Shown here piece by piece: positions 17,773-64,000 of a DNA stretch of 64,000 nucleotides. The stretch spans positions 1 to 64,000 of the forward strand of contig SAKE01000026.1 in the NCBI GenBank assembly GCA_004017275.1, read 5' to 3'. A program made the position numbers and the translations under genes. The notes under the pieces are model-generated. The model did not search any database. It had not been told where the DNA came from and saw only the letters and a program-made list of their open reading frames with translations. Each line of letters starts with the position of its first letter. Position 1 is the stretch's first letter. Source of the DNA: Mesorhizobium sp. GTDB taxonomy: Bacteria; Pseudomonadota; Alphaproteobacteria; Rhizobiales; Rhizobiaceae.

Positions 17773-17957
17773 GTCGGTCTCCTTCGTGCCGGCCCGTGTA
17801 GTTTCGGGGGATGCGGTCCGGCTTTACCAAAGACTAATATGCAACCGTGGCTGAACGGGGGCTGAACGGATTTCGGCGCGTTGATTCAAAACAAGCGTCA
17901 AAGACCACACGCTCTCAAGAGAGCGGAAGCGTCTGCCGTCGCCGGCCTGGAGCCGGC

Positions 17958-18170
17958 TCAGCCGACCGACAGGTTGACGGCTTTCGGACCCTTGCCACGC
18001 TTGTCCGGCTCGGTGTCGAACGACACTTTCTGGCCGTCCTCGAGACCGGGAAGACCGGACGCCTGCACGGCTGAAATATGGACGAAAACATCCTTCGCGC
18101 CATCATCGGGCGTGATGAAGCCGAAGCCCTTGGCATGGTTGAAGAATTTGACGGTGCCGGTCTGCGGCAT
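17958..18170 (-). CDS. Cold-shock protein (CspA family)
   Basis: [59 protein letters not shown]1/RNP2 motifs. Confidence 0.96.
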
Positions 18171-18320
18171 GGGAAGCTCCTTTGTCCCATAAACTCCAGT
18201 CTCGGGCCGGCAGATGCCCGAATGGAAATTTGTCCTTTATTTTAGCGTCATCGGCAAGAGAAAGTTTTAAAGGCGCCTCAAGCGCGTCGCGACATGCATT
18301 GGTCTACGTTTTCGGAACGA

Positions 18321-18433: not shown

Positions 18434-18646
18434 TCAGGCTGCGCGGAGATTGACGGCCTTGGGACCCTTGCCCATGCGATCCGGCTCGACGTCGAAGGTG
18501 ACCTTCTGGCCGTCGACAAGCGTGCGCAAGCCGGAAGCCTCGATCGCGGAGATATGGACGAACACATCCTTGGCGCCGCCGTCGGGCGTGATGAAACCGA
18601 AGCCTTTGGTCGCGTTGAAGAATTTAACGGTGCCGGTCTGGGCCAT
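18434..18646 (-). CDS. Cold-shock protein (CspA family), tandem paralog
   Basis: [56 protein letters not shown]. Confidence 0.96.
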
Positions 18647-19138
18647 TGGGGAAACTCCTTCACCCGTTCAGTCTTTGGTGGTCCCGCCCGCCGCCTGGCG
18701 CAATGGGCAAGTCCCGGTGGTTGCTTCGGCAGTCATGCATTGGTGCATGGTCAAACCCCCCGCCGAAAACGGGGCCGTCAGAGATTCACAGTATCGGGGA
18801 AAGGTCGTCCAAAACGTTCCGCTCTCCGGGTCGCAAATGCCCGAACACGGAATTTATCGCACGGAAACGTGATGGTTGCAAGATACCGCCGCGGGCCGCC
18901 GCAGTGGCGTATCCCGACGCATGGATCGACTGACCTGAACATCGATCGGCCCGGCATAGGCTTGCTTGCCGGCCGGGTCATCGGCCAGAACCGAGCCACG
19001 AATGGGCCAGATGTCGGGGCGGGCTGATGTCGCCTGCAGGTCCAGGTGACGTTGTCGACATGGGTGATCAAACGGGGATTGCATTTGGCAGGGGAATGGC
19101 GAGGATCGGTTCCAGAGACGCGATCGTGGGAGATCATC

Positions 19139-40011: not shown

Positions 40012-40533
40012 CTAAAGCCCCTTCGGCACCAGTCCTGCCAGCCAATTCACGGAGCGTTTCGCGGCGTCGGCGGTCGCCGAGGCGGCGCGGCCAAGATCGG
40101 TCTTGACCACGGCGTAGCCGTTTTTCGTGCGATAGAGCACGCTGGTTCCGCCATCGACCACTTGTTCATAGGCGACAGGCCGGGCGGCGTCCGCTTCCAT
40201 GGCGGTCGTCGGCGAACCGACTGGGACGCTTGGCCGGTGGCTCAATTCAGGCGGCAGCGGGCTTTCGGTTCCGACAACCCGGCTGGCGGGCTTCAGTTCC
40301 GGGCGCGATGCGGTCGCGGCCAACTCAGAGGAGGACGACGAGCCCTTGGTGCGGCAGATGCCGGAGACGAGCGGATAGTTGAAATTGCGCTCGTGCAGCA
40401 TCTGGCTTTTCATCGCCGCTTCGCACTCGGCGACGGTCGACCACTTGGCCGGCGTCTCGCCGATATACTCGCAAAGCTTGGCGTCGCAGTCGCAGCCGAC
40501 GATGGTCATGGCGACAAGGGCGGTCTTGATCAC
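40012..40533 (-). CDS. Hypothetical protein with N-terminal Cys-rich segment (probable GTG start)
   Basis: VIKTALVAMTIVGCDCDAKLCEYIGETPAKWSTVAECEAAMKSQML...; convergent with the preceding gene. Confidence 0.65.
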   Translation of the reverse strand: MIKTALVAMTIVGCDCDAKLCEYIGETPAKWSTVAECEAAMKSQMLHERNFNYPLVSGICRTKGSSSSSELAATASRPELKPASRVVGTESPLPPELSHRPSVPVGSPTTAMEADAARPVAYEQVVDGGTSVLYRTKNGYAVVKTDLGRAASATADAAKRSVNWLAGLVPKGL

Positions 40534-40575
40534 GGTCTTGTCCCTTCGAGATGCAACCCGGCAACCCATGCATGT

Positions 40576-40620
40576 GCATGTCGTGATCCCAAAACCGGTT
40601 CCCACTTTTGGGCGACATGC
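40576..40620. repeat. Dispersed hairpin family, copy A
   Basis: GCATGTCG-tgat-CCCAAAA-ccggttcccac-TTTTGGG-CGACATGC. Confidence 0.85.
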
Positions 40621-40725
40621 AACACTCCATCGCGCGCGAACAAGGCGGGATTTGGCCGCGATTGTGAAATGAGCGTGGCGGATCGTTCGAGGAGGCCGAT
40701 CTTTGCGGGACGTGGCCGAAAGGCC

Positions 40726-41856
40726 TCAGTAATCGTAGATGTGTTCGAGCCTTGCGCCTGACTTGATCAGCGCCGGCAGGACGAGATGCAGCTTGCGCAC
40801 GGCGACGGTCATTCCTGTGCGGCGCGTTGCCGGATCGGCTGGCATCGGATAGCTGAACAGGATGCGCATGCCCTCGGGGACGGCGATCGAATCGGTGGAC
40901 AGCACGGTGACCATGATCTCGTCATTGCCGCCGATCTCGACGAAGGACACGCCCTTGTCGATCAGGCGCGGGATCATTTCGGTGAAGACCTGATAGCGCT
41001 TTGTGACGAAGATCGTGCCGTCCGCCCCCAGATCGCGTTCGAGCAACGTGTCGGGCTCGTTGCGGGTGGCTTCGCCGACCGGCCCCTTGGCCCAGACATG
41101 GATGTCGAGCAAGGCGGGGTTCATCGTGGCGGTCAGCGCCTGCTTGATCAGGTCGGCATAGCCCTGCTTGATGGTGTCGGCGAGGCCGAATGCCAACTTG
41201 CGTTCGCTGGTGCGGACGGAGCTGTCGCCCGGCGCCGGCTGCACGGCAAACAGGCCGGCCCGCTTTTGCGCATAGGGGAACTGATACCACGGCACCTGAT
41301 CGAGGAATTTGGCATAGTCGACCGCCACCTTGGCCTGATAAATATCGGCGGCAGTTCGCTTGCCTGATATCGCTTCGGTGATGCGACCGACCGTGTTTTC
41401 ATAGGCCCACTGCAGGATATGCTCGATCGAGTGGCTGGTACCGATGATGACCAGCATCTGGTGGTTGGCGTAATTGAATTTGTAGGGAGAGCTGGCGCGG
41501 ATAACCATGGCGTAATCCTGCCAGAAGCGGCCGACATAGGACCAATAGGGGAAGCCGCTCGGCTGGTCCTTGTCGACGAAGCCGGCATATTCGCGTGCGG
41601 CGTAGACGATCGCCCATTCCGGATAGGTGAGGAAGGTCGATTCTTCCGGCCGCTGGTAGAAGGGGATCTCGGCGCGGACCTTGTCGGCCAGCGCCTTGGG
41701 CGGGGCGCCGTCGGCAATGCCGGGCAGCGGCGTCTTGTCGAGCGACGACGTCGTCAGGAAGCCGTAGCTCAGCCCGGCGATCGGGATGAGGATGACGATG
41801 ACGATCAGCCAGAGGATCGTCTTGACGATGCGCTTCAGCCAGCGAAACAGGAACAT
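40726..41856 (-). CDS. Hypothetical membrane-anchored protein
   Basis: 376 aa; N-terminal TM LKRIVKTILWLIVIVILIPIAGLSYGFL; no family recognised. Confidence 0.8.
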   Translation of the reverse strand: MFLFRWLKRIVKTILWLIVIVILIPIAGLSYGFLTTSSLDKTPLPGIADGAPPKALADKVRAEIPFYQRPEESTFLTYPEWAIVYAAREYAGFVDKDQPSGFPYWSYVGRFWQDYAMVIRASSPYKFNYANHQMLVIIGTSHSIEHILQWAYENTVGRITEAISGKRTAADIYQAKVAVDYAKFLDQVPWYQFPYAQKRAGLFAVQPAPGDSSVRTSERKLAFGLADTIKQGYADLIKQALTATMNPALLDIHVWAKGPVGEATRNEPDTLLERDLGADGTIFVTKRYQVFTEMIPRLIDKGVSFVEIGGNDEIMVTVLSTDSIAVPEGMRILFSYPMPADPATRRTGMTVAVRKLHLVLPALIKSGARLEHIYDY

Positions 41857-47779: not shown

Positions 47780-47961
47780 GATGGTCTGGCCGGCTCCGGA
47801 AATCTGGCCGCAGCCTAGACGCGACGGGTCGACCGCGTCGCCGCGCCATCCGGCATCAGTTGTGAAAAAAGCGACCGTCGAACTGGTCGGGTTTGCGGGG
47901 ATTCCCGACAATCGCGCTTGATATCTAGGTTCTCGACAGCCTATGCGATGGGATCGTTTTG

Positions 47962-48008
47962 GCGCATGATTTTTTCCGAAAAGTCTGCAACTTTTCGGAA
48001 TCATGCGC
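47962..48008. repeat. Dispersed hairpin family, copy B (upstream of purC)
   Basis: GCGCATGATT-tttt-CCGAAAAG-tctgcaa-CTTTTCGG-AATCATGCGC. Confidence 0.88.
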
Positions 48009-48037
48009 TGGCCACTCTGCGGAAGGCAGGAAATCAT

Positions 48038-48979
48038 ATGCGAACCCTCCCTGACGCGTTCATCCCCGAACTGCCGGGCCATTACAGCGGCAAAGTCCGC
48101 GAAAACTACGACCTTGCGGATGGCAGGCGTATCATCATCGCCACCGACCGCCTCAGTGCATTCGACACCATCCTGACCTCGATCCCTTACAAGGGAGAAA
48201 TCTTGACGCAGACGGCGCGCTACTGGTTCGAGGACACCGCCGATATCTGCCCGAACCATGTTCTCGAATACCCCGACCCGAACGTCGTCGTCGGCACCAG
48301 GCTCGACATCCTACCAGTCGAGATCGTCGTGCGAGGATATCTGGCGGGAACCACCAGCACCTCGATCCTGACGCGCTACAAGCGCGGTGACCGCGACATG
48401 TATGGCATCCGCCTGCCGGACGGCCTGCGCGACAATGAGAGGCTGGCCGAACCGATCATCACGCCGACCAGCAAGGCCGCGCATGGCGGCCATGACGAGC
48501 CGCTGTCCAAGGCCGAGATCCTCGAACAGGGCCTGCTTACGCCAACGCAGTGGGAGACGGTATCGGACTACGCCTTGCGGCTGTTCGCCCGTGGCCAGCA
48601 GCGTGCCACTGAGCGCGGCCTGATCCTCGCCGACACGAAATACGAATTCGGTACCGATAAGGACGGGACCGTCATTCTTGCCGACGAAATCCACACGCCC
48701 GACAGCAGCCGGTACTGGATCGCGGCGGGCTACGAACAGGCGCTCGCCGACGCCAGCCGGCCGGAGAGCTTCGACAAGGATTTCATCCGCTCATGGGTCT
48801 CGGCGCGGTGCGATCCCTATAGCGACCCGATCCCCGAGATACCCGACGAGATCGTCGAACAGGCCTCGCGGGTCTACGCACAGGCCTATGAGGCGATCAC
48901 GGGCAAGGAATTTTCTCCGGACCTTTCCGGGGATAGCGTGCTCGATCGCATTCGCACGAACCTCAGGCGCTACTTCTGA
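48038..48979 (+). CDS. purC: Phosphoribosylaminoimidazolesuccinocarboxamide (SAICAR) synthase, about 313-aa form
   Basis: [65 protein letters not shown]. Confidence 0.95.
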
Positions 48980-58539: not shown

Positions 58540-59241
58540 CTACTGTTTGAGCACGCCGACAATCGCCTCGCCGTCGGTGAAATAAGGATCTCCGCCGCCG
58601 TTGCGCCCGGTGGTTGTTGCGCCGATGCCTGCAATGTCGCTGGTCGCGATCAGCATGCCGGCGGTGGCCAGGTCGCGCATCAGGAAATCGCGCTCGGCAT
58701 CGATGTCGGGGCCGATATGGTGCGTGATGGCGCCGGTGTCGTGGCTGAGGCCGACGCCGCGGTCGAAGCTGGCGGAGCCCAGCCATAACGGCCGGCCGTC
58801 ATCACCGACAGCATCGGTTTGCCAGAGGCGGACATGATGCCGGCGATCGGCGCTGCCGCCAACCGGCTTTTCGAAGGCGAGGTCCTGTGCACGGCCGTCG
58901 AACAGCAGCCGGCTGACCGGCGCATCGGGGTAGGGGTGGTCGAACAGCACGCTTTCACCGATCTCGATCACGGTCTTCAAGGTCACGGCGTCGGCGGTGT
59001 CCCAGCCGGCGACGGCGAAGGCATGGATTACCTCCTTTCGCGTGCCGACAAGGCCGACATTGATGGGATCGCCTGGAATGCCTTGCGGCGTGTGCGTCAC
59101 CATCTCGAAGCGTTGCGTGCGAAAGCCGCGATCGCGGAATGTCCAGAATTCGGGTGCCGCGAAATAGGCGAGCGCCAGATAGGTGGCCAGCAGGGCGGCC
59201 ACCCAGATTGTAACGCGTCGCCGAAAGCTTCGTTGGCTCAT
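58540..59241 (-). CDS. LssY C-terminal domain-like protein
   Basis: DPINVGLVGTRKEVIHAFAVAGWDTADAVTLKTVIEIGESVLFDHPYPDAPVSRLLFDGRAQDLAFEKPVGGSADRRHHVRLW. Confidence 0.82.
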   Translation of the reverse strand: MSQRSFRRRVTIWVAALLATYLALAYFAAPEFWTFRDRGFRTQRFEMVTHTPQGIPGDPINVGLVGTRKEVIHAFAVAGWDTADAVTLKTVIEIGESVLFDHPYPDAPVSRLLFDGRAQDLAFEKPVGGSADRRHHVRLWQTDAVGDDGRPLWLGSASFDRGVGLSHDTGAITHHIGPDIDAERDFLMRDLATAGMLIATSDIAGIGATTTGRNGGGDPYFTDGEAIVGVLKQ

Positions 59242-59308
59242 TTGTCGCTGCTTTTACATGATCTTAATCCGCAATTGCTATCGAGGCTCTAACAAGAGGG
59301 GTGGTATC

Positions 59309-60523
59309 ATGGCGTCAATTCCGGGGTGTCTGGCTTCGGCTGGGCAGGTTTGGCGACGTTTCTTCGGGGATCGCTCGGGCAATTTCGCGGTGTTTTTCGC
59401 ACTTGCGCTTGTGCCGTTGACGGCCGCCGTCGGCGTTGCTGTCGACTATCACGATGCCTCGCAACTTCGCAGCCGGACCCAGGAGACCCTGGACGCGGCG
59501 GTGCTCGCGGGCGTGCTGAAATCAACGACGGACGATCAGATCAGACAGGCCGAGACGTTCTTCACCGCCCAAGCCGTAAACTATTGGGGTACCGCGCCGA
59601 CGGCGACCTTTTCCGTCAACAGCCAGGGCCAACTGACGGGAACGGCCCAGGGGATGGCGCGGTCCACTTTCGGTCTCGCCGACTTGTCCGTCAAGGTCAC
59701 CGCGACCGCCGCGGCGGCGGCCACATCCAAGGTCTGCATCCTGCTGGTCAACCCTTCGAAGTCGCAGTCCTTCCTGGTCAACTCGGGGGTGGCGCTGAAC
59801 GCCCCGCAGTGCGAGATTCACGTCCTGTCCACAGCAAACCCGGCTGCCATTTTCAACTCGGGCTCGACGCTTGGGGTCAAACGCACTTGCATCAAGGGCA
59901 AGGACATCATCAACAATGGCGGGATGTCGGTAGAGACGAATTGTGCCGCGATCTCCGATCCTTTCGCGAAATCGATGCCGAAGGTTTCCGTGGGCGCTTG
60001 CGACTTCAACAACCAAGTCTACAACCCAGGCAACGTCACCCTGCAACCGGGCGTCTATTGCGGCTGGACCAATTTCAATGGCAGCGGGAAACTGACGCTC
60101 AAGCCGGGTCTCTACATTATCAACAACGGCGGCATGACCTTCAACTCGGGCTGGACAGTCAGCGGTGCCGGCGTCACCTTCTACCTGGTCGACCAGAACG
60201 CGACGCTGACCTTCAACGGCAACGTCAACACGACGCTGTCGCCCCCCACCTCGGGAACCTATGCCAACATTCTGATGTTTGAGCCCGCTGGCTTGCCGAA
60301 CACGAACCTGCCAATCAATGGGACGAGCGGCAGCTCCATTCAGGGATTGCTGTATCTGCCCAGCCGGGACGTCACCATCAATTCCGTGTCGAACGTGAAC
60401 GCCGATAAAACCACGATGGTTTTCTCCTCCCTCATCTTGAACACGCTGAACTGGGTGGTCGCCCCAGGGGCCTTGGCCATGACAACGTCAGGCGGCGCGG
60501 GATCACCTAGGCTGATTCAGTAA
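59309..60523 (+). CDS. TadE/TadG-type protein
   Basis: FFGDRSGNFAVFFALALVPLTAAVGVAVDYHDASQLRSRTQETLDAAVLAGV; low-complexity Asn/Gly/Ser/Thr-rich repeat-like C-terminal region. Confidence 0.85.
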   Translation: MASIPGCLASAGQVWRRFFGDRSGNFAVFFALALVPLTAAVGVAVDYHDASQLRSRTQETLDAAVLAGVLKSTTDDQIRQAETFFTAQAVNYWGTAPTATFSVNSQGQLTGTAQGMARSTFGLADLSVKVTATAAAAATSKVCILLVNPSKSQSFLVNSGVALNAPQCEIHVLSTANPAAIFNSGSTLGVKRTCIKGKDIINNGGMSVETNCAAISDPFAKSMPKVSVGACDFNNQVYNPGNVTLQPGVYCGWTNFNGSGKLTLKPGLYIINNGGMTFNSGWTVSGAGVTFYLVDQNATLTFNGNVNTTLSPPTSGTYANILMFEPAGLPNTNLPINGTSGSSIQGLLYLPSRDVTINSVSNVNADKTTMVFSSLILNTLNWVVAPGALAMTTSGGAGSPRLIQ

Positions 60524-60544: not shown

Positions 60545-60742
60545 CCGTCCGATCGCGGTTTTCAGGGTGACAGCGTCGGCCGTATCCCATCCCGCCACGG
60601 GGAACCGTCTCGAAGCGCTGCGTGCGAAAACCGCGATCGTGAAACGTCCAGAATTCCGGTGCCGCGAAATAGGCCGGCGCCAGATCGGCCGCGCAGCCAC
60701 CAGTCAGGTCAATGCGCGTCGTCGCAGGCGTCGTTGGCTCAT
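60545..60742 (-). pseudogene. Internally deleted duplicate of the LssY-C-like gene at 58540-59241
   Basis: GWDTADAVTLKTAIG peptide and nucleotide match, e.g. cgtccagaattccggtgccgcgaaataggc / tgtccagaattcgggtgccgcgaaataggc, plus shared 5' end cgttggctcat. Confidence 0.8.
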
Positions 60743-61581: not shown

Positions 61582-62388
61582 CTAACGGCAAGCGCGATAA
61601 CCGCTCTTGCGGTTCTTGATGTCGAAATGGAAATGGTTGCGGTGGTCGTAATTGTAGCCGGGGCCGAGCACGGTGGTGAAATACTGGCAGCCGTCGGCGC
61701 GCACATTGTTGAGGAAACCGCGGGTGCGGAAGGCGAACAGGCCGGGCTTGCGCACGTCGATGTCGTCGCCATTGTTGAGCTCGATGCTCATGACGTCGAG
61801 CGCATTGCCCTTGCCGTGCTCGGACAAGACACCTTCGCCGGCGATCCTGCGGCAGGAATAGCTGGAGCCCTGGTGAATGGTCTTGACGCCGGAGAAATAA
61901 CGCCATCGGGCGGAGGGGACGAGTTCGTTCTTCGTCCAACCGGCAAAGGTGGCGGCCATGTCGCAGGTCAGCGTCGCCGCCGGCTTCATCTGGATATTGC
62001 CGATGGCCGAGACCTTGACCGGATAATCGATGCCGCACTGGCCTTCATGGATCGGCTGGACATCGGTATAGACGACATCGAGGCGCTTCAATTGCTGACG
62101 GCAGTCGGTTTCGCTGGTCGGCATCTGCTCGACCGGCGACATCGGCTCGTCCATGCGCGGATAGGCGGCCTGCGTCATATAGGGATTGGAGGGAACGAGC
62201 TTCTGCATGCCGGCGTATTGCGGTACCGCAGCCGTCTGCGAGCCGACGTCGACGGCCGGTTCAAGCGACAGCACGCTGCCCGTGTTGCAGGCGGAAAGTG
62301 CCGCGAGCGCAAGGCCGGTGGTCACCATTGCTGCATGTTTCGATCGGCGCGCGACGACGATAGACACGGCGCGAAATATTCCGGCCAT
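61582..62388 (-). CDS. Extensin family protein
   Basis: CRQQLKRLDVVYTDVQPIHEGQCGIDYPVKVSAIGNIQMKPAATLTCDMAATFAGW ... LSEHGKGNALDVMSIEL ... DHRNHFHFDI. Confidence 0.9.
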   Translation of the reverse strand: MAGIFRAVSIVVARRSKHAAMVTTGLALAALSACNTGSVLSLEPAVDVGSQTAAVPQYAGMQKLVPSNPYMTQAAYPRMDEPMSPVEQMPTSETDCRQQLKRLDVVYTDVQPIHEGQCGIDYPVKVSAIGNIQMKPAATLTCDMAATFAGWTKNELVPSARWRYFSGVKTIHQGSSYSCRRIAGEGVLSEHGKGNALDVMSIELNNGDDIDVRKPGLFAFRTRGFLNNVRADGCQYFTTVLGPGYNYDHRNHFHFDIKNRKSGYRACR

Positions 62389-62427: not shown

Positions 62428-62441
62428 CTACCTTGCCTGAC

Positions 62442-62484
62442 CATGATCTTTTCCGAAAACCGGTTCCCACTTTTCGGGATCATG
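62442..62484. repeat. Dispersed hairpin family, copy C
   Basis: CATGATC-tttt-CCGAAAA-ccggttcccac-TTTTCGG-GATCATG. Confidence 0.88.
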
Positions 62485-62585
62485 CTCAGATGTCCGGCAT
62501 TTTAGCGATCAAGGGTAAAGGAAAACTCAGCGCCCGCGTTCATGCCTGCGGCCGAATTGCGGCACGTGGTCTCGGCCAAGCGTGC

Positions 62586-63761
62586 TCACTGGCAGAACGT
62601 CCCGCCATGTCGGCGCGGTTCGAGATCGAGATGGAAATGCAGGGAGTGATCGGCATCGGCACCCGGTCCGAGCACGGTCTTGAATGGCCCGCAGGCGGCC
62701 TTGCGCACGGCGTCGAGGAATTTGGCGTCCTTCTCCGGCGGCACCGGGCCGACCTCGATCTTCCTGCCACCCGACAGCGTGAAGCTGGCGATGTCGAGCG
62801 CATTGCCGAACGCATGTTCCGACAGTTTTCGTGTGCCGTTGCGTGGCCGGCAGACAAAGGCCGATGCCTGGCCGATCGATCTCAGGTCGGCACCGAATTC
62901 GGCTTTCGCCGCCGGCTCGATGACATTGGCGGCAAAACGCGCCGTCGCCTCCGCCATCTTGCAGTTGAGCTCGGTGCCGGACCCAATGGCGACTGACTTT
63001 CCAAGGGACTTCAGCACGAGGGGATAGGGGATCGAGCAGCCGATCTCGGGGTTGCTTTCCGCCTTGTGCTCTTCGAATTCGACGCCGAGCGTCTTCAGCC
63101 GTTCGCGGCAAGCGACTTCCTCGGCCGGCATTTTCGCCTCGGGCAAGTCGTCCGATCGCGGGTCTGGAAGCATCTTTTCGTCGTCTGCATCGGCCGGCTT
63201 TTGCGACGGCTGCGGGGCAACGGCCGGCGGCTGAGCCTCGGGCTCCGTGATATCAGGCTTTCGCGTCGGCGTTGGCGCGACAGCTGGCGGTTCCGGCTCG
63301 CTTTCCACGGCTGACGGCTCCGGGGCTGACGGCTCGGGAAGTGCCTGCTTTTTCAGCTGGGATTTTTCTTCACCGACACGGTCGGGCGCTCCGGCGGTCT
63401 TTGGAGCTTCCGTCTTCTGCTCCTGCGTCTTTGCGGCGTCAGCCTTCGGAGCGTCCGCCGGGCGTGGCTGGGGCACCGGAATACCGGGCCTGGGCACCGG
63501 AACATCGGCAGGCGAGGGCAGCGGAGGCTGCGTTTTCTGCTGTGTCCGGGTCGGCGTGACCTGTCGGTGGCGTCGTGGTTTCAGACGTTTTGCGCCCCGC
63601 GGTTTCAATGGCTGGTCGGCTCGCGGTGTCAGCGGCTGCTCCACCCGCGGCGTCAGCGGCTGCCGACGGCGATGTTTGGCATCAGCCGGTGTCGCCAGCA
63701 GAGCCGTGACGGCCATGACCAATGCAATCCTGCATGTTCGGGAAAGGACAAGCGACGCCAT
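62586..63761 (-). CDS. Extensin family protein with long Pro/Lys/Arg-rich N-terminal region
   Basis: CRERLKTLGVEFEEHKAESNPEIGCSIPYPLVLKSLG ... LSEHAFGNALDIASFTLSGG ... DHSLHFHLDLEPR; signal peptide at MASLVLSRTCRIALVMAVTALLATPADA. Confidence 0.9.
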   Translation of the reverse strand: MASLVLSRTCRIALVMAVTALLATPADAKHRRRQPLTPRVEQPLTPRADQPLKPRGAKRLKPRRHRQVTPTRTQQKTQPPLPSPADVPVPRPGIPVPQPRPADAPKADAAKTQEQKTEAPKTAGAPDRVGEEKSQLKKQALPEPSAPEPSAVESEPEPPAVAPTPTRKPDITEPEAQPPAVAPQPSQKPADADDEKMLPDPRSDDLPEAKMPAEEVACRERLKTLGVEFEEHKAESNPEIGCSIPYPLVLKSLGKSVAIGSGTELNCKMAEATARFAANVIEPAAKAEFGADLRSIGQASAFVCRPRNGTRKLSEHAFGNALDIASFTLSGGRKIEVGPVPPEKDAKFLDAVRKAACGPFKTVLGPGADADHSLHFHLDLEPRRHGGTFCQ

Positions 63762-63825
63762 CGCCGTCAACGGCGCCAATGCAAAATAGGTTGCCTGCGC
63801 CGCATCACGAACGGTAACCACGTCG

Positions 63826-64000
63826 TTACGCGCCGATCGCTTCCAGCCCTTCCTCCAGCCAGTCGGCAAGCAGCGGCATGCCAAGCAGGTATTTTGCGGT
63901 GCGCTTGTTGGCGCGCTCGCGCGCCGTGGCAAGCGCGTCCGCCCATTCGGCGGCGTCGTAGTCGCCGCGACCGACCCAGGCCAGCGCGATCAGTTCGGCT
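63826..64000 (-). CDS. DUF3775-like protein, partial (N-terminus beyond window)
   Basis: minus-strand translation AELIALAWVGRGDYDAAEWADALATARERANKRTAKYLLGMPLLADWLEEGLEAIGA*. Confidence 0.65.
   Translation of the reverse strand, partial: AELIALAWVGRGDYDAAEWADALATARERANKRTAKYLLGMPLLADWLEEGLEAIGA

Follow-up and report, generated by a model that had tools for sequence, protein, structure and literature searches.

Three dispersed hairpins whose stems stay paired while their bases change are found in the window, that is, the whole 64,000-nt stretch of DNA that was analysed, part of a 6.58-Mb draft genome. The question raised by these loci is whether each hairpin is a structure kept at its site or a copy of a repeat. 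The preliminary description had taken the compensatory changes as an argument for selection on RNA or DNA secondary structure rather than simple repeat copying.

The positions reported for the three hairpins proved right (copy A, 40576-40620; copy B, 47962-48008; copy C, 62442-62484), and folding confirmed that they have one architecture in common: an outer stem, a one-sided bulge of 4 nt, an inner stem and a loop. The bulge sits on the 5' side of the hairpin, and each copy folds on either strand, the z values relative to dinucleotide-shuffled sequence lying between -3.0 and -5.8. Copy A consists of the outer stem GCATGTCG/CGACATGC, the bulge TGAT, the inner stem CCCAAAA/TTTTGGG and the loop CCGGTTCCCAC. 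Copy C is built from CATGATC/GATCATG, the bulge TTTT and CCGAAAA/TTTTCGG, and carries a loop identical to that of copy A. The described exchanges, GTCG/CGAC in copy A for GATC/GATC in copy C in the outer stem and CCC/GGG for CCG/CGG in the inner stem, are exact. Copy B, with the outer stem GCGCATGATT/AATCATGCGC and the bulge TTTT, differs in having a longer inner stem (CCGAAAAGT/ACTTTTCGG) and the loop CTGCA. Copies A and C share a core of 18 nt, for which 0.03 occurrences per window are expected by chance. When the window was scanned with a covariance model of the family with the filters off, A, B and C were the only strong matches:

40568-40626, plus strand: full model match of copy A (cmsearch, 71.8 bits)
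40576-40620, plus strand: hairpin of copy A (fold z -3.0 on the plus strand, -4.1 on the minus strand)
40592-40609, plus strand: conserved core of copy A, AAACCGGTTCCCACTTTT (exact match)
47956-48012, plus strand: full model match of copy B (cmsearch, 58.3 bits)
62433-62491, plus strand: full model match of copy C (cmsearch, 77.6 bits)
62457-62474, plus strand: conserved core of copy C, AAACCGGTTCCCACTTTT (exact match)

Copy A is flanked by the minus-strand genes 40726-41856 and 40012-40533, and copy B ends 25 bp upstream of the start codon of purC at 48038 (SAICAR synthetase; Pfam SAICAR_synt). Copy C separates two minus-strand genes, 61582-62388 and 62586-63932, each of which ends in an Extensin-like_C domain (Pfam PF06904); these neighbours are apparently a tandem pair. 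Two other repeats were seen in the window. Two sub-threshold matches to the Rfam cspA thermoregulator on the minus strand (17903-18223 and 18477-18721) overlap a 170-nt direct repeat of 78% identity and probably belong to adjacent cold-shock genes, and an 85-nt direct repeat of 88% identity (59099-59183 and 60604-60688) flanks an open reading frame at 59183-60523.

The covariance model was built from 14 host copies aligned by sequence alone. The search beyond the three known copies, which the preliminary description had proposed, was run on the host genome and, with up to 150 candidates scored, gave 143 matches at E<=1. A search of an 800-kb host sample with no such ceiling returned nearly the same matches for those stretches, so that about 140 copies should be near the true count in the host for the model used. 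Among the congeners, 23 of 24 have at least 86 model matches per genome. The more distant spread is patchy, the family being present in 23 of 289 alphaproteobacterial genomes. A 31-nt exact form was found in Mesorhizobium, Bradyrhizobium, Brucella/Ochrobactrum, Jiella, Rhodoplanes, Pseudolabrys, Methyloceanibacter and others, and 12 genomes with this form have 10 to 149 model matches each. The genomes of the Brucella loci L066 and L105 hold 115 and 149 matches. Plasmids carry relatives of the hairpin too, among them plasmids of Rhizobium, Sinorhizobium and Bradyrhizobium. One family copy, situated mostly between two predicted genes, was found in a sewage phage record (MW091529.1; L456 1501-1556). 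A literature search with the literal core sequence retrieved only unrelated human or mouse papers, and at the gathering threshold no Rfam family matched the hairpins.

The copies are largely intergenic. Only 6 of 121 overlap a coding sequence predicted by our purpose-written, non-standard codon-usage gene caller, in a genome that is about 86% coding; copy B is among these six because a false open reading frame runs through purC. Tandem, convergent and divergent intergenic regions are used at the expected rates (p 0.31), and within tandem regions the orientation to transcription is unbiased, with 31 copies sense and 44 antisense (p 0.17). Within the tandem intergenic regions 31 of 75 copies lie in the first fifth, on the side where the upstream gene ends (KS p 3e-4). 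This lean could fit the avoidance of promoters or a mild role at the 3' end or in the 3'-UTR.

For the anatomy of the family 122 host copies were extracted. They share the frame AAAACCG-N3..6-CACTTTT (the core can also be given as AAAACCG-N5-CACTTTT) and the 4-nt 5' bulge, and 89 of the 122 have a strict CCG...CAC loop, with 48 different centres. A T-rich tract precedes the stem; it is TTTGTTT-like in 56 copies, and TTTT is the commonest 4-mer there. The four-mers most often seen at the 3' end are TCTA and ATTA. Around the one loop frame the stems form at least eight subfamilies. Besides the stem of copy A these include GCAATTCC/GGAATTGC, GCATGATC/GATCATGC, GCAGGTTC/GAACCTGC, GCATCGGA/TCCGATGC, GCATGATG/CATCATGC and others. 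In some copies, e.g. C135:25388-25468, an extra hairpin replaces the 5' bulge, and this variant (GGACAAACGG...CCGTTTGTCC) was also seen at L010, L002 and L004. Units can be joined head to tail (C106:75909-76024 and C116:207493-207605). At the threshold applied, a second hairpin lies just upstream in 28 of the 122 host copies, about a quarter (1 in shuffled flanks). One such composite of about 108 bp, L039, runs from AAAGCGCG to CATTAG and has the linker TCTTTGTTTTT. Similar composites are also found on plasmids of Rhizobium, Sinorhizobium meliloti/medicae (S. meliloti pSymB) and Agrobacterium, whereas A, B and C are without hairpin I of the composites.

The compensatory change first noted among three copies was borne out across many. 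In the alignment of the 14 copies 94% of the cells pair and 11 of the 19 pairs change on both sides; none of 500 shuffles reached any of the five observed measures. When 119 copies were aligned with MAFFT and column pairs were ranked by a statistic that ignores phylogeny (APC-corrected G statistic/mutual information), the top six all lay on the diagonals of the two stems, while among the lower-ranking pairs linked subfamily markers score too. Covariation between subfamilies is real.

A different picture was obtained when individual sites were followed through the congeners. At the purC site ten genomes, the host among them, carry the element (copy B). The site is empty, with a clean joint, in the close relatives G045, G022, G051 and G049 as well as in species farther away, and further genomes hold a partly deleted element; no clear target duplication was seen. 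The orthologous site of copy A is empty, eroded or carries inserts inside the loop, depending on the congener, and congener G047 has no element where copy C would be expected by orthology. When 1.2 Mb of G047 was compared with the host, 5 of 20 sites with alignable flanks were clearly shared, and most of the others were without the element or rearranged.

The cleanest case is C86:2940-2998, where 62 bp are inserted between ACC and AGCC and GCTC stands at either side. A MITE is characterised by target-site duplication and terminal inverted repeats; here the GCTC found at both ends is at the same time the sequence in which the element itself ends at 3'. The insertion is present in the host and, in the same form, in G044, and is absent from 27 of 29 congeners examined, most of which have the joint ACCGCTCAGCC intact. 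The congeners that are occupied at this site differ in form, G044 having the simple one and G049 (L434) the one with the extra hairpin. Repeated insertion could explain the patchy distribution, but so could precise loss or recombination. Since orthologous sites are occupied in some genomes and empty in others, the copies are copy-paste insertions, and the contrast drawn originally between structural selection and simple repeat copying is not supported.

The arms of inserted copies mostly decay. At sites A, B and four others, small samples in which the arms were aligned by hand, 16 stem changes break a pair, 10 give G-U and 1 is compensated on both sides. We estimate that this split is about that of random single changes with an excess of transitions. 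Compared with the orthologs, the 33 double-sided cells among the 14 paralogs give a Fisher p of about 2e-7, calculated on cells that are not independent. Two levels thus have to be kept apart: compensatory change, on which the proposed structural selection was based, is found between subfamilies, and recent copy-paste with random mutations, which was to speak against it, is found within sites.

Taken together, the high copy number, the intergenic location, the precise insertion polymorphism, the compensated subfamilies and the uncompensated decay argue for a mobile repeat. We are fairly confident that the three hairpins belong to a mobile palindromic repeat of the Hyphomicrobiales (Rhizobiales) that is non-autonomous, about 55-60 bp long and of the REP/RIME kind. 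The copies look like small genomic parasites and not like regulatory RNA kept per site. Against a mobile repeat count the lack of a transposase among our search results, the lean toward 3' gene ends, the small ortholog samples, the one compensatory pair and the patchiness of the C86 insertion, for which precise loss or recombination could also account. Given the mobility, the arm decay and the unbiased orientation, selection on the hairpin most likely acts on propagation; an RNA function kept locus by locus is the less likely target.

RIME1, a 108-bp element of the same hosts with two large palindromes, is a possible relative of the two-hairpin form. About a quarter of the host copies resemble it in being made up of hairpin I, a linker and hairpin II; in contrast, A, B and C have a single hairpin, and the single unit moves alone and occurs well outside the Rhizobiaceae. 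The name stands for Rhizobium-specific intergenic mosaic element (Osteras et al. 1995, as cited in PMC2873474 and PMC2573895). The CcrM-associated intergenic repeats, CIR (Chen and Shapiro 2003, as reviewed in PMC2229807), are according to that description about 110 bp long, with two arms and a linker, intergenic and alphaproteobacterial. The composites agree with this description, and the restriction of CIR to intergenic regions is matched by the few overlaps with predicted coding sequences given above. In CIR a conserved GANTC would be expected in a terminal loop. Here, GANTC lies within 60 nt upstream of 34 of the 122 copies, an enrichment of about threefold (0.09 expected per copy), but is absent from most; GATTC is present in some hairpin I loops.

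Two Rfam families overlap with the hairpin family; their annotation is that of regulatory sRNAs of Brucella and not of repeats. The composites match the whole RF02600 model (BASRCI27) at E 1e-9, the best with 54.9 bits, and the reverse strand of copy A (40564-40631) matches it with 42.0 bits (E 1e-5), all below the gathering score of 59.8. In RF02599 (BASRCI408) a hairpin within the model aligns with one host single-hairpin copy, below the gathering score of 398. This overlap, noticed at L039 1429-1564 and L041 1495-1631, suggests that RF02600 and part of RF02599 may be copies of the mobile repeat.

The same overlap bears on an alternative in which the hairpin is an RNA structure selected by the host, such as a terminator, a 3'-end stabiliser or an sRNA, and in which the covariation results from selection at each locus. 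The strong covariation and the lean of the copies toward the 3' side of upstream genes agree with such a function, as does the alignment of the sRNA CI27 and part of CI408 with the repeat. Transcripts of both have been detected, and the sRNAs thereby confirmed, by PCR-based assays according to a review that does not mention repeats (PMC9751625). Read-through transcription would, however, account for the RT-PCR detection, and orientation to genes shows no bias. Moreover, orthologous copies break pairs or lose arms, and purC and other sites can do without a copy. In the modelled orientation the T-rich tract lies 5' of the hairpin, the common 3' ends are TCTA and ATTA and no T-run follows; an intrinsic terminator was rejected for this reason. 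We regard a host-selected RNA as quite unlikely. The compensated stems could also be the product of mutation itself if, by template switching in an imperfect palindrome, one arm is rewritten from the other with no selection on structure. Template switching in quasi-palindromes is a known mutational process and would be compatible with mobility. It is in keeping with subfamily stem changes that come as blocks of adjacent bases (GATC to GTCG) and with a host-specific change in copy B, GCTC to GCGC, that lengthens a perfect palindrome. Yet the arms at orthologous sites mostly diverge instead of being corrected, and the CCG...CAC frame, which is not part of the stem, is kept in 89 of 122 copies amid many different centres, which points to recognition of the element. 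As the source of the covariation, template switching seems unlikely to us.

A mobile repeat could be a classical REP mobilised by a RAYT, a Y1 tyrosine transposase. The size, the bulged hairpin, the intergenic sites, the dimers and tandems and the high copy number all resemble REPs. The GTAG and CGTC REPs (PMC3733652) are likewise short dispersed intergenic palindromes with dimers, and CGTC REPs are common in alphaproteobacteria and have no dedicated transposase (PMC3733652); they are reported to be missing in Brucellaceae, where the hairpin family is abundant. At the hairpin foot GTAG was found in 6 and 3 of 122 copies (6 and 13 after shuffling) and CGTC in 2 and 9 (6 and 9 after shuffling). 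Neither tag is enriched, and identity with GTAG or CGTC REPs was rejected. A profile search of the host for Y1_Tnp (PF01797) gave no match, although the positive controls were matched. In the genus, 7 of 61 genomes have Y1_Tnp, and none of the six of these loci that were scanned has a family copy nearby. We therefore consider mobilisation by a RAYT highly improbable. The translated open reading frames between nearby copy pairs, inspected by eye in four intervals, contained nothing suggestive of a transposase. The Bradyrhizobium repeats Br-REP1 and Br-REP2 (PMC5082802) are similar in being abundant intergenic palindromes that form composites with flanking palindromes; their printed consensus, compared by eye, differs in having neither the core nor the stems of the hairpin family.

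By analogy with the IS200/IS605 and REP systems, we infer that an enzyme acting in trans may copy the unit by recognising, probably in single-stranded DNA, the bulged hairpin together with the conserved CCG...CAC flanks of the loop. A source copy that is to succeed would have to stay foldable, whereas inserted copies would then drift; covariation between subfamilies would follow from the source copies keeping a foldable hairpin. Insertion beside short ends such as GCTC, the repeats' own 3' end, would give rise to the tandem arrays and to the two-hairpin composites (about 108 bp). We put forward tentatively, as a doubtful but possible extension, that an enzyme other than a Y1/HUH transposase of the known REP type inserts the hairpin of about 55-60 bp in, or next to, a tetranucleotide like GCTC, that the four bases common to the 3' end and the target chain the units into arrays and two-palindrome mosaics, and that RIME, CIR and the two Brucella 'sRNA' families are products of this process.

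The kind of repeat described here is already known; the useful parts are the clean insertion site, the overlap with Rfam sRNAs and the fact that no known transposase accompanies the family. Covariation in dispersed repeats can mislead, since compensated changes mark mobile subfamilies and are mostly lost within single loci. The overlap with RF02600 and RF02599 bears on the annotation of sRNAs in Brucella and rhizobia, and the clean GCTC insertion together with the empty sites of congeners offers a handle on REP-like mobility in genomes free of RAYTs. If the extension proposed above is true, one mobile system would lie behind RIME, CIR and the two 'sRNA' families of Brucella.
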